Virus record (IMG/VR): IMGVR_UViG_3300042868_005531
Span: 1 to 24,535 of that record
Length of the DNA: 24,535 nucleotides
Reading direction: 5' to 3' (one strand)
DNA from: a virus
The notes beneath the pieces were generated by a model, which saw only the letters and a program-made list of their open reading frames with translations, did no database searches and had not been told where the DNA came from. Below are positions 8,050 to 15,934 of this stretch, one piece after another. The position numbers were made by a program, and so were the translations under genes. Within the stretch, counting starts at the first letter, position 1, and each line of letters starts with the position of its first letter.

Positions 8050-8598
8050 ATGAAAACTTCCGATAGTATTAAAACTATTGCGGCAGCACTTGTGGCCGCT
8101 CAATCGCAGATTAGGTTTGCTGTTAAGGATTCTACCAATCCTCATTTCAAATCTAAATACGCTAATATCAATTCAACGGTCGATGCGATCAAGCCTGCTC
8201 TTAATGACAATGGCATTGCTTTCATTCAATCGTTAAGCCCTTCAGACGACGGTAAACTTCATTTAACCACTCGATTACTTCATAATTCAGGTGAATGGAT
8301 TGAGGATACGGCCGTCTGTCCTTTACAAAAGCAAGATGCGCAAGGCGTTGGGTCATGCGTGTCTTATTTAAGGCGTTATAGCTTAACGGCCATGTTAGGT
8401 CTTTATAGCGAAGATGACGATGGTAATTCTGCATCAGAAGTTAATCCAGCTTTCTTTATTGCTAGAATTAATAGCAGTAAGTCTTTAGATGATCTTCAAA
8501 AAAATTACATGGCTGCCATGGATCAGCTTCGTGGCAATACACACGCTACACATGAAATTATTCAAGCTAAAGATGCTATGAAAGCAAGGTTAGCATAA
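8050..8598 (+). CDS. erf: ERF-family ssDNA annealing protein
   Basis: This 182-residue protein has the ERF pattern: N-P-H-F-K-S-K-Y-A-N-I at 30-40, a central T-x-R-L-L-H-x-S-G-E at 74-82, V-G-S-C-V-S-Y-L-R-R-Y-S-L at 100-112 and E-D-D-D-G-N at 121-126. ERF proteins are ring-forming annealases that pair complementary single strands (P22 Erf is the founding member). It probably works with the exonuclease two genes downstream in a two-protein recombination system used for genome replication, end repair or exchange with other phages. The Lys-rich region and stop overlap the next small ORF (TAATG). Confidence 0.9.
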   Translation: MKTSDSIKTIAAALVAAQSQIRFAVKDSTNPHFKSKYANINSTVDAIKPALNDNGIAFIQSLSPSDDGKLHLTTRLLHNSGEWIEDTAVCPLQKQDAQGVGSCVSYLRRYSLTAMLGLYSEDDDGNSASEVNPAFFIARINSSKSLDDLQKNYMAAMDQLRGNTHATHEIIQAKDAMKARLA

Positions 8599-8726
8599 TG
8601 TTACTTTCTAATTTTTACGGTATTCAATTGCCTGTGTGGGAAAGTGATATAGCTCAAATTGAAAAACGACATATCAAAGTTTTATTTTTAAAAAGATTGA
8701 TAGCTATGAAAAGAGAATATAAATGA
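8598..8726 (+). CDS. Small basic protein (42 aa)
   Basis: A 42-codon ORF sits exactly between the ERF and exonuclease genes, with TAATG at its start and ATGA at its stop, so the whole span is coding if it is real. It begins M-L-L-S-N-F-Y-G-I-Q-L-P-V-W-E and ends with a basic helix (K-R-H-I-K-V-L-F-L-K-R-L-I-A-M-K-R). It could bind nucleic acid or associate with a membrane surface. No family is recognised. Confidence 0.5.
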   Translation: MLLSNFYGIQLPVWESDIAQIEKRHIKVLFLKRLIAMKREYK

Positions 8727-9358
8727 CAGAAGAAATTATCCAAGGATCAGATGCCTGGCATCAAATAAGATTGGGAAAAATAACCGCCTCACGAATTGCT
8801 AATATCATGACCAAAGTCAAAACAGGCGAGTCTGCTTACCGCAAGCGTGCTAAATTTGAAATCATCAGGGAGCGTTTAACAGGTCGACGAATTGAGTCAT
8901 ATAAGACAGCTCTCATGCAGCGTGGGATAGATTTAGAACCGTTGGCCCGCGCTAAATACGAGCATGTAAAAAATGTTATGATTGATCAGATTGCTTTTGT
9001 CAATCATCCTACCGTTCCTATGGCTGGCGCTTCCCCTGACGGTCTTATTGGTGACCATGCTTTATTAGAGATCAAGTGTCCTAGCCCTGAAAACCACCTA
9101 GGCCATCTAATTGATGATGGTGCAGATTTAGTTGCGACCTATAACGCTCAATGCCAATGGCAGTTGGCCTGTATGCCTGATCGCAAGTATGTAGATTTAG
9201 TTTCTTTTGATCCTGACCAAAAAGAGCACTTGCAGTTGTTTATTAAGCGCTTGTATAAAGACGAGGTTTGGATTGCTGAAGCTGAAAAAGAGGTCATCGC
9301 TTTAAATGATGAGATTGAAAATATTATATTAAAATTAGAGGAGTTTACAAATGGCTGA
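8723..9358 (+). CDS. Lambda Exo/YqaJ-family recombination exonuclease
   Basis: This 211-residue protein has the YqaJ/lambda-exonuclease fold motifs: W-H-Q-I-R-L-G-K-I-T-A-S at 12-23, R-G-I-D-L-E-P at 67-73 with E72, A-G-A-S-P-D-G at 101-107 with catalytic D106, and L-E-I-K-C-P at 115-120 with E116 and K118, followed by Q-C-Q-W-Q-L in the last core helix. It should be a Mg-dependent 5'-3' dsDNA exonuclease that makes 3' single strands for the ERF annealase. The start overlaps the preceding small gene (ATGA) and the stop overlaps the following one. Confidence 0.9.
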   Translation: MTEEIIQGSDAWHQIRLGKITASRIANIMTKVKTGESAYRKRAKFEIIRERLTGRRIESYKTALMQRGIDLEPLARAKYEHVKNVMIDQIAFVNHPTVPMAGASPDGLIGDHALLEIKCPSPENHLGHLIDDGADLVATYNAQCQWQLACMPDRKYVDLVSFDPDQKEHLQLFIKRLYKDEVWIAEAEKEVIALNDEIENIILKLEEFTNG

Positions 9359-9605
9359 ACAATATGTTCCTAAACCTGGCACTGGCAGTGCTTTTAAAAA
9401 TGAAAATAAGACGGAAGATTGGCATGGCGACTATCAAGGTAAGATTGTTTTACCTGAAGGCGCTGTCCCTGGCGCTACTTATTATTTCAATATTTACAAT
9501 AATCAAACAAAAACTGGCAATCCATATTTAGGTGTATCTATTGGTAAACAAGTTCAGCCTAAAGGTGAGTTTGCTTCAGCAGTTGAAGCGGATATGCCAT
9601 TTTAA
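9351..9605 (+). CDS. Small SSB-tail-like protein (84 aa)
   Basis: This 84-residue protein has a beta-rich body (K-P-G-T-G-S-A-F-K-N-E-N-K-T, then D-Y-Q-G-K-I-V-L-P, Y-Y-F-N-I-Y, G-V-S-I-G-K) and ends E-A-D-M-P-F. An acidic tail closing in Pro-Phe is the hallmark of bacterial SSB, where it docks partner proteins. With ERF and exonuclease just upstream, a ssDNA-binding or SSB-mimicking role is a reasonable inference. The body is short for a full OB fold of SSB and may be a minimal version. A GAGG ribosome binding site lies before the start, inside the exonuclease gene. Confidence 0.6.
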   Translation: MAEQYVPKPGTGSAFKNENKTEDWHGDYQGKIVLPEGAVPGATYYFNIYNNQTKTGNPYLGVSIGKQVQPKGEFASAVEADMPF

Positions 9606-9689
9606 TGATTTTCTTGATGGTTTTGTCTGCATAAACAAGTAATCTTATATTTACAGGCAAATTGCTTGGATAATAAAAGGATCAACACC

Positions 9690-9761
9690 ATGTGGACAAC
9701 TCCAGCAGCTACAGAAATGCGTTTTGGATTTGAAGTTACTATGTATGTAATGAATAAATAG
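9690..9761 (+). CDS. pqqA: PqqA, precursor peptide of pyrroloquinoline quinone
   Basis: This 23-codon gene matches PqqA along its length: M-W-T-T-P at the start, R-F-G-F-E-V-T-M-Y in the core and N-K at the end. It has the same length as the Klebsiella peptide, and the two residues that become PQQ, Glu15 and Tyr19, are in the same positions (E-x3-Y). In bacteria PqqE with PqqD cross-links these residues, and PqqB/F/G/C complete the cofactor used by methanol and glucose dehydrogenases. An AAGGA ribosome binding site lies 8 nt before the ATG, and the gene is last in the rightward operon, ahead of a strong terminator. No pqqB-E is present, so host enzymes would have to process it. It is the phage gene most likely taken from a methylotroph host. 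Confidence 0.93.
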   Translation: MWTTPAATEMRFGFEVTMYVMNK

Positions 9762-9773
9762 TAGCTTTAAATA

Positions 9774-9809
9774 TGGTGAATAGCGTTCCTCGGAAAAATG
9801 GTATCACCA
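9774..9809 (+). other. Stem between pqqA and terminator
   Basis: TGGTGA (9774-9779) and TCACCA (9804-9809) can pair around a 24-nt loop that itself contains a small TTC/GAA inverted repeat. It begins 12 nt after the pqqA stop and would form in the 3' part of the message, just before the terminator. It may protect the transcript or be a processed small RNA. Weak evidence. Confidence 0.3.
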
Positions 9810-9815
9810 GTAATT

Positions 9816-9840
9816 AAGGGCCTTTATGGCCCTTTTTTAT
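9816..9840 (+). terminator. Intrinsic terminator of the rightward operon
   Basis: A perfect 7-bp stem AAGGGCC (9816-9822) / GGCCCTT (9828-9834) with a 5-nt loop is followed by a T run (to 9838). This is a strong rho-independent terminator about 55 nt after pqqA and marks the end of the rightward transcript. Confidence 0.9.
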
Positions 9841-14794: not shown

Positions 14795-15934
14795 CTATTT
14801 AAAATAATCACCTACCATCCATGTAACTACAGAATATCTTATACCTTTTGTTACAGGCTCAACACCATGTGGCATAAATGAAGGGAATACTAAAACTGTG
14901 CCAGGCGTTTGTTGAGGATAAAATCTTTGATTACTATTTTGAATATAAAACTTACCGCCTTCAAAATCATCATTTAAAAATGCTAATACAGTTAATTTTC
15001 TAGTTTCATTTGACCTTTGATGAAAGGTATCAACATGAGTTTCATATTTACCATTAACATCATACATTAAAAATTCTGATTGATTTGAATGCGTAATATT
15101 GTATTGCCATATTTGATGATTAACTTGCAATCCAATAGAAGTTAATGTTGCACCAATACCTGCAAATAAAGGTAACTGTAATCTTTGAACATTACGAATA
15201 TCAAGATTAATATTTTTTTCTAAATCTTGACCTTTACCAATAAACGGAAGTTCTTTTTCTACTTCAGGCTTTGCATATTCCTCAATAAGTTTTTTACAAA
15301 ATCCTTCAGAAATTGCATTTTCTACTTTGTAACATTCATCAAAACCATTATTGTTTTGAATTGTTTTGCTAATGCCTAATGATTCGCGCTTATCATATTT
15401 CCATTCAGCGTGTGGGCCATTAGCATCAACATAATGCAAAAATACTTGAGCTTGCCATTGCCCTTCTTTATAGGGTTCTCGCCAATGGTATTTATCGCAC
15501 CCACGATACATAACTGCATCGCCAATAGCCATATCAATTTTTGAGCTATTAGTTTTATCTTCATGGTCGCCCATATAAATTGACCAAACATCACCTTCAA
15601 AACCTAATGTAATAGTGGCTGATATTTCACAAGCTGGTCTATCTCTATGATTTTTTAATTCCTCACCTTTTTGATTATAAAGGCGAGCATAAGAATAAGT
15701 GGGGTAAAGTTTAAGACCTGACTTTTCTTCAAAATAAGGCGTTAATTGTTCAAGAAGTAAATCAAATTGTTCTGCGCCATGCACCGCTTGAGATTTTGGG
15801 CATTGCTCATCATTAATGGTTTGTTGTTGATTAACTAAATCTTTTAAATATTCAGTTAAATTTTTGCATGATTGCTCATCTAATACATTTTTTAAATGAA
15901 CATACCCATTGTTTTTAAACTCTTGTATTGTCAT
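14795..15934 (-). CDS. Tandem two-domain 2-oxoglutarate/Fe(II) dioxygenase
   Basis: This 379-residue protein looks like two 2OG-Fe(II) oxygenase domains in tandem. The C-terminal one is clear and prolyl-4-hydroxylase-like: Y-E-T-H300-V-D302 as HxD, F-E-G-G-K-F at 324-329, H356 in F-M-P-H-G-V and R366 as the 2-oxoglutarate-binding residue. The N-terminal half is more diverged but shows H96-R-D98 and H150 as a second possible metal site. Such enzymes hydroxylate protein side chains or nucleobases using iron, O2 and 2-oxoglutarate. It sits between fibre genes, suggesting modification of virion or host-surface proteins. The start has an AAAAGGA ribosome binding site. Confidence 0.82.
   Translation of the reverse strand: MTIQEFKNNGYVHLKNVLDEQSCKNLTEYLKDLVNQQQTINDEQCPKSQAVHGAEQFDLLLEQLTPYFEEKSGLKLYPTYSYARLYNQKGEELKNHRDRPACEISATITLGFEGDVWSIYMGDHEDKTNSSKIDMAIGDAVMYRGCDKYHWREPYKEGQWQAQVFLHYVDANGPHAEWKYDKRESLGISKTIQNNNGFDECYKVENAISEGFCKKLIEEYAKPEVEKELPFIGKGQDLEKNINLDIRNVQRLQLPLFAGIGATLTSIGLQVNHQIWQYNITHSNQSEFLMYDVNGKYETHVDTFHQRSNETRKLTVLAFLNDDFEGGKFYIQNSNQRFYPQQTPGTVLVFPSFMPHGVEPVTKGIRYSVVTWMVGDYFK

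Follow-up and report, generated by a model that had tools for sequence, protein, structure and literature searches.

The window analyzed here is the whole 24,535-nt stretch of a 24.5-kb virus record, which carries tape-measure, tail, primosomal, endolysin, and recombination genes. In its recombination region, the gene order is ERF, YqaJ exonuclease, an 84-residue protein, an 84-nt gap, and a short ORF extending from ATG at 9690 to TAG at 9761, of which the translation is the 23-residue peptide MWTTPAATEMRFGFEVTMYVMNK. The features of this region are as follows.

8050 to 8598, plus strand: ERF single-strand annealing protein, context (PF04404, 3.5e-27)
8723 to 9358, plus strand: YqaJ-type exonuclease, context and synteny anchor (PF09588, 7.5e-23)
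9351 to 9605, plus strand: 84-residue protein directly upstream of pqqA, context (position)
9623 to 9651, plus strand: promoter-like site TTGTCT-N17-TATATT (weak alone; as many matches expected by chance)
9654 to 9668, plus strand: small leader hairpin CAGGCA-AAT-TGCTTG at the predicted mRNA 5' end (folding; not significant alone)
9677 to 9681, plus strand: Shine-Dalgarno sequence AAGGA, 8 nt 5' of the ATG (sequence)
9690 to 9761, plus strand: pqqA, 23-residue PqqA precursor peptide with cross-link residues Glu15 and Tyr19 (Pfam and NCBIfam models, 23/23 host identity)
9774 to 9809, plus strand: conserved hairpin between stop codon and terminator (folding; found in seven phage-like loci)
9816 to 9834, plus strand: intrinsic terminator stem-loop AAGGGCC-TTTAT-GGCCCTT, then a T-run (stem co-varies among relatives)

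The window peptide matched Pfam PF08042 with an E value of 3e-10 (40.3 bits, cut-off 21.1) and the NCBIfam equivalog model TIGR02107 with an E value of 5.6e-10 (38.8 bits, cut-off 20), exceeding both curated cut-offs by a large margin, and its Glu15 and Tyr19 conform to the E-x3-Y spacing near the C terminus of PqqA proteins. With these matches and both residues in place, the peptide can be taken as a true PqqA. A chance short frame was ruled out, given that the window has a single PqqA motif (W-P-R-G-E-T-Y spacing) and 100 dinucleotide shuffles of the window have none. A search of the window against Rfam returned no match, nor did a search of PDB sequences with the peptide, as expected for a 23-mer. 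The peptide is identical in all 23 residues to the PqqA found in many members of the Methylophilaceae. The window gene is a phage-encoded PqqA of a methylotroph phage, as a sequence-only reading had proposed from the length of the gene and the two reactive residues; the ribosome-binding site and the terminator which that reading described are also in place.

Among GenBank phages, the window has a single near relative, P19250A, a Methylophilaceae phage (33% covered, 81% identity); its host, strain IMCC19250, belongs to the freshwater LD28 group. Based on this relative and on the peptide signature, the phage from which the window is a fragment is likely to infect Methylophilaceae. The 84-residue protein directly upstream of pqqA is by its position probably ssDNA-binding, and the gene adjoining pqqA in the spring-water phage ctXG6705 is annotated as putative ssDNA-binding. 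Elsewhere in the window, positions 14795 to 15934 on the minus strand encode a two-part protein of 379 residues that matches 2OG-Fe(II) oxygenases at its C terminus, in the PHROGs class of auxiliary and host-takeover genes.

The sequence-only reading had placed pqqA at the end of the recombination operon. Its position behind the ERF, YqaJ, and 84-residue protein genes agrees with this, but the 84-nt gap contains the promoter-like site, a lone match that is no better than chance, and pqqA may, instead of being just the operon's tail, form a short transcript of its own. Shine-Dalgarno matches of at least 5 nt precede 135 of 148 viral pqqA starts, compared with about 4% in shuffled leaders, and -10-like boxes cluster 30 to 60 nt upstream of viral starts, lying 5' of the leader hairpin in viral and host leaders alike. 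The leader hairpin of the window itself folds no better than shuffled sequences (z +0.43). Across viral leaders, folding exceeds that of shuffled sequences directly 5' of the ribosome-binding site (mean z -1.67, n = 130) but not farther upstream (z -0.21); in host pqqA leaders the effect is weaker (z -1.07). A layout of -10-like box, stem-loop, and Shine-Dalgarno sequence, at 9646 to 9689 in the window, is thus common to viral and, more weakly, to host leaders with unrelated sequences. Downstream of the gene, the hairpin at 9774 to 9809 (GGTGAATAGCGTTC...GAA...) is common to the window and loci L277, L256, L264, L002, L034, and L237. Its 5' arm is invariant in this phage group, and substitutions in the 3' arm keep the pairing; it is perhaps an mRNA stabilizer or a small RNA. 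Taken together, the leader, promoter, hairpin, and terminator features suggest short self-standing mRNAs for viral pqqA, the promoter and leader hairpin of the window being weak singly.

No genes for PQQ enzymes lie near the window pqqA, as had been noted from the sequence. This is not odd in view of the several stand-alone pqqA copies kept by Methylophilaceae. A scan for EMRFGFEVTMY in one genome per species gave matches almost only in Methylophilaceae, with a few in other Betaproteobacteria, and the comparison with Methylophilaceae pqqA called for earlier revealed that the commonest host peptide is the window peptide (23/23). All 120 Methylophilaceae genomes searched contain pqqA, in 1 to 12 copies each; 3 to 12 copies next to one pqqBCDE set have been published for the family (PMC4109929). 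The complete streamlined genome of strain LSUCC0665, for example, has pqqA genes at 52 kb and, two of them, at 875 kb, and pqqE and pqqC at 765 to 767 kb. With the pqqA genes of this genome so far from pqqE and pqqC, a stand-alone pqqA is the hosts' own style. PqqE was found above cut-off in six of seven host-family genomes searched and PqqC in 10 of 12; the genomes in which they were missed are incomplete small assemblies. A host without any pqqBCDE genes would have spoken against the proposal; the family of the putative hosts has the PQQ enzymes and the homologous gene, as is asked of the host of an auxiliary metabolic gene. Five loci of OM43-type hosts (L147, L150, L217, L227, and L235) have two tandem pqqA genes about 200 bp apart, with peptides ending in VCNK or VCNR and in VMNK.

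Searches by tblastn identified PqqA in P19250A (23/23), Venkman, MEP301, MEP401, MEP402, four records of the 141-kb Melnitz phages, and ctXG6705. The Melnitz peptide, MKWTKPVAQEMRFGFEVTMYIMTR, is divergent from the window peptide. In P19250A, Venkman, MEP301, MEP401, and MEP402 there is no annotated feature under the match, and in the Melnitz phages and ctXG6705 a "hypothetical protein" is annotated at the site on the opposite strand. The gene thus escapes annotation in the isolate phage genomes examined, as the sequence-only reading had anticipated for a gene below the usual size cut. The same unannotated gene is present in nine sequenced methylophage records and in considerably more than 100 contigs of uncultured viruses. 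Its occurrence in complete isolate genomes, and the phage genes surrounding the window pqqA, place it in genuine viral genomes, as expected of an auxiliary metabolic gene. In the publications that describe Venkman, MEP301, MEP401/402, and Melnitz, pqqA goes unmentioned in the main text. Earlier work had reported PqqA in the Lake Baikal phage VP_266 and had stated that P19250A encodes none of the auxiliary genes of that study (PMC7678222); for pqqA, our tblastn match contradicts this statement. A 2026 reservoir study listed pqqA among viral genes (PMC13188868).

Viral loci were gathered with degenerate DNA patterns. A pattern for G[F/L]EVTMY identified at least 120 loci in IMG/VR, with a short PqqA frame in every one listed. 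A second IMG/VR scan used the N-terminal half only, so that the reactive residues were not selected on. Among the matches listed, Glu15 and Tyr19 are intact in 131 of 131 copies, six of which vary only at Val16 or Met18. Disruption of this pair in related phages, which would have weighed against a functional peptide, was therefore seen in none of the copies found, including those from the scan blind to it. The contigs of the most divergent copies encode phage portal, terminase, DNA polymerase, clamp loader, major head, and tail proteins; these genes indicate that several phage types carry pqqA, probably with other hosts too. PqqE was above cut-off in none of 40 pqqA-bearing phage records. One of the 40, a 72-kb record (L050, IMGVR_UViG_3300025120_009955), has, like VP_266, a dehydrogenase gene besides pqqA; it is full-length and of the PQQ-dependent methanol/ethanol dehydrogenase type (G153:34049-35731). 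A match in Acinetobacter phage MD-2021a (CAKLQF020000010.1) was attributed to host DNA and left out. There pqqA is the first gene of a bacterial pqqBCDE operon that adjoins a polyphosphate kinase gene, and the record is probably at least partly host chromosome.

For synteny, 21 loci were chosen by the neighboring YqaJ exonuclease and not by the peptide. An intact pqqA lies about 300 nt 3' of the exonuclease in 10 of the 11 loci with at least 54% exonuclease identity and enough downstream DNA, and in none of the more distant exonuclease relatives (51% identity or less). Related phages therefore hold the same peptide at the same locus, a check that the sequence-only reading had suggested. In the synteny-chosen set, pS was 0.44 and pN 0.06, resulting in a pN/pS of 0.14; the value of 0.17 for the whole viral set is biased by the search pattern, and only the former is relied on. 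These values argue for purifying selection on phage pqqA, in keeping with an auxiliary metabolic gene that is maintained by selection.

In Melnitz-like phages (L380 to L393, and L004), conserved flanks enclose a short site just 5' of the OB-domain gene, in which pqqA and a tRNA-Leu gene occur singly, together, or not at all. L393, which has pqqA, is otherwise nearly identical at this site to L390 and L392, which lack it, so that the site looks like one with a cassette either intact or absent. The stretch upstream of the OB-domain gene is a small insertion hot spot in these phages. In Zobellviridae, pqqA occurs near the MEP402 position in 4 of 36 loci with upstream DNA, after rejection of a match in L340 as a spurious frame. 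No decayed pqqA copies were seen by scanning or in the presence/absence comparisons. Because some close relatives are without the gene, pqqA appears dispensable in some hosts or conditions. The alleles are 69 nt and too short for a firm tree. For 74% of viral alleles the nearest neighbor is viral, compared with 50% when labels are shuffled, and for about 26% it is a host allele, from which we conclude that pqqA spreads from phage to phage and is to some extent exchanged with hosts.

We consider it likely that the phage copy of host pqqA works as an auxiliary metabolic gene that sustains the supply of PQQ for methanol dehydrogenase. It is known that the PqqA leader is bound by PqqD and that Glu and Tyr are cross-linked by PqqE (numbering one higher for the PqqA of that work; PMC10906245). 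The host PqqA, identical to the window peptide, would be the natural substrate of PqqE and PqqD. According to this proposal, a Methylophilaceae phage would carry a functional pqqA, from which PqqA would be made during infection on a short mRNA. Host PqqD would bind the phage peptide, host PqqE would cross-link its Glu15 and Tyr19, and host PqqB and PqqC would mature the cross-linked product. Because one PqqA is consumed per PQQ, supplying the precursor alone could sustain PQQ as host expression declines, and methanol oxidation would go on, providing phage replication with energy and C1 units. The 1 to 12 pqqA copies of hosts with generally one enzyme set fit a precursor dosage that matters; this dosage and the known chemistry are what suggest the role in PQQ supply. 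Weighing against a limiting PqqA supply, overexpression of the whole operon was reported to give only limited gains in PQQ (PMC9851590). The medium published for OM43 includes PQQ (PMC9004378), by which an effect of the phage gene could be masked.

The same sequence evidence is compatible with a replacement, in which the phage copy only holds PQQ at its normal level after early destruction of host mRNA or DNA, or with service to a PQQ-dependent enzyme other than methanol dehydrogenase. The self-standing transcription signals fit this as well, and sequence alone does not tell replacement from boost; we regard this alternative as unlikely. The sequence-only reading had also raised a decoy, a phage peptide that occupies PqqD and PqqE, slows host PQQ synthesis, and diverts metabolism from methanol oxidation. 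PqqD could in principle be titrated by a surplus of substrate-like peptide, and the sequence is compatible with this, but the peptide equals the host substrate in every residue and evolves under purifying selection, and Glu15 and Tyr19, by the loss of which a decoy would gain, are never lost in viral copies. The pairing of PqqA with methanol dehydrogenase in one phage record and in the Baikal study (PMC7678222) points to promotion instead, and we judge a decoy to be highly improbable.

The least credible reading is that a host gene was acquired by chance and is without effect on infection. Many stand-alone pqqA copies are available in host genomes for pick-up, and roughly a quarter of viral alleles are nearest to a host allele. 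Against this, pqqA is syntenic where the neighboring exonucleases are only 54 to 60% identical, its presence/absence is clean, and unrelated phage lineages carry it. On these sequence comparisons, synteny and pN/pS already contradict a neutral passenger.

The window gene resembles Methylophilaceae PqqA (PF08042, TIGR02107) in its identical 23 residues, in standing alone away from pqqBCDE, and in a short leader with a strong Shine-Dalgarno sequence. It differs in its location in a phage recombination region, in its flanking DNA, and in a leader sequence that is not common to host copies. Cyanophage psbA is an auxiliary phage gene that props up a host energy pathway. Similarly, the phage here would supply one short-lived or consumed component of such a pathway, but the component is a ribosomal peptide substrate of a cofactor pathway and not an enzyme or structural protein. 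VP_266 is likewise a predicted Methylophilaceae phage with PqqA as a proposed auxiliary metabolic gene, but it has a T4-like genome and a methanol dehydrogenase, whereas the window has pqqA alone in a P19250A-like siphovirus-type genome (PMC7678222). Our finding is a further case of a kind once reported, spread much wider than the literature we found suggests. New here are this breadth, the hidden copies in isolates, the clean presence/absence at one site, and the leader-hairpin architecture.

In conclusion, a metabolic gene known from one published phage of methylotrophs is widespread in methylophages and was missed for its size. We lean toward the view that a guild of methylophages of at least three unrelated genome types supplies only the consumable precursor by means of short self-standing transcripts, and that this substrate-dosage gene, hidden by annotation in all isolates examined, sustains methanol oxidation. 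Among the phages that carry it are cultured ones of abundant methanol oxidizers, the marine OM43 and the freshwater LD28/Methylopumilus groups, so that it becomes directly testable whether a phage can drive a pathway by providing nothing but the consumed precursor of its cofactor.
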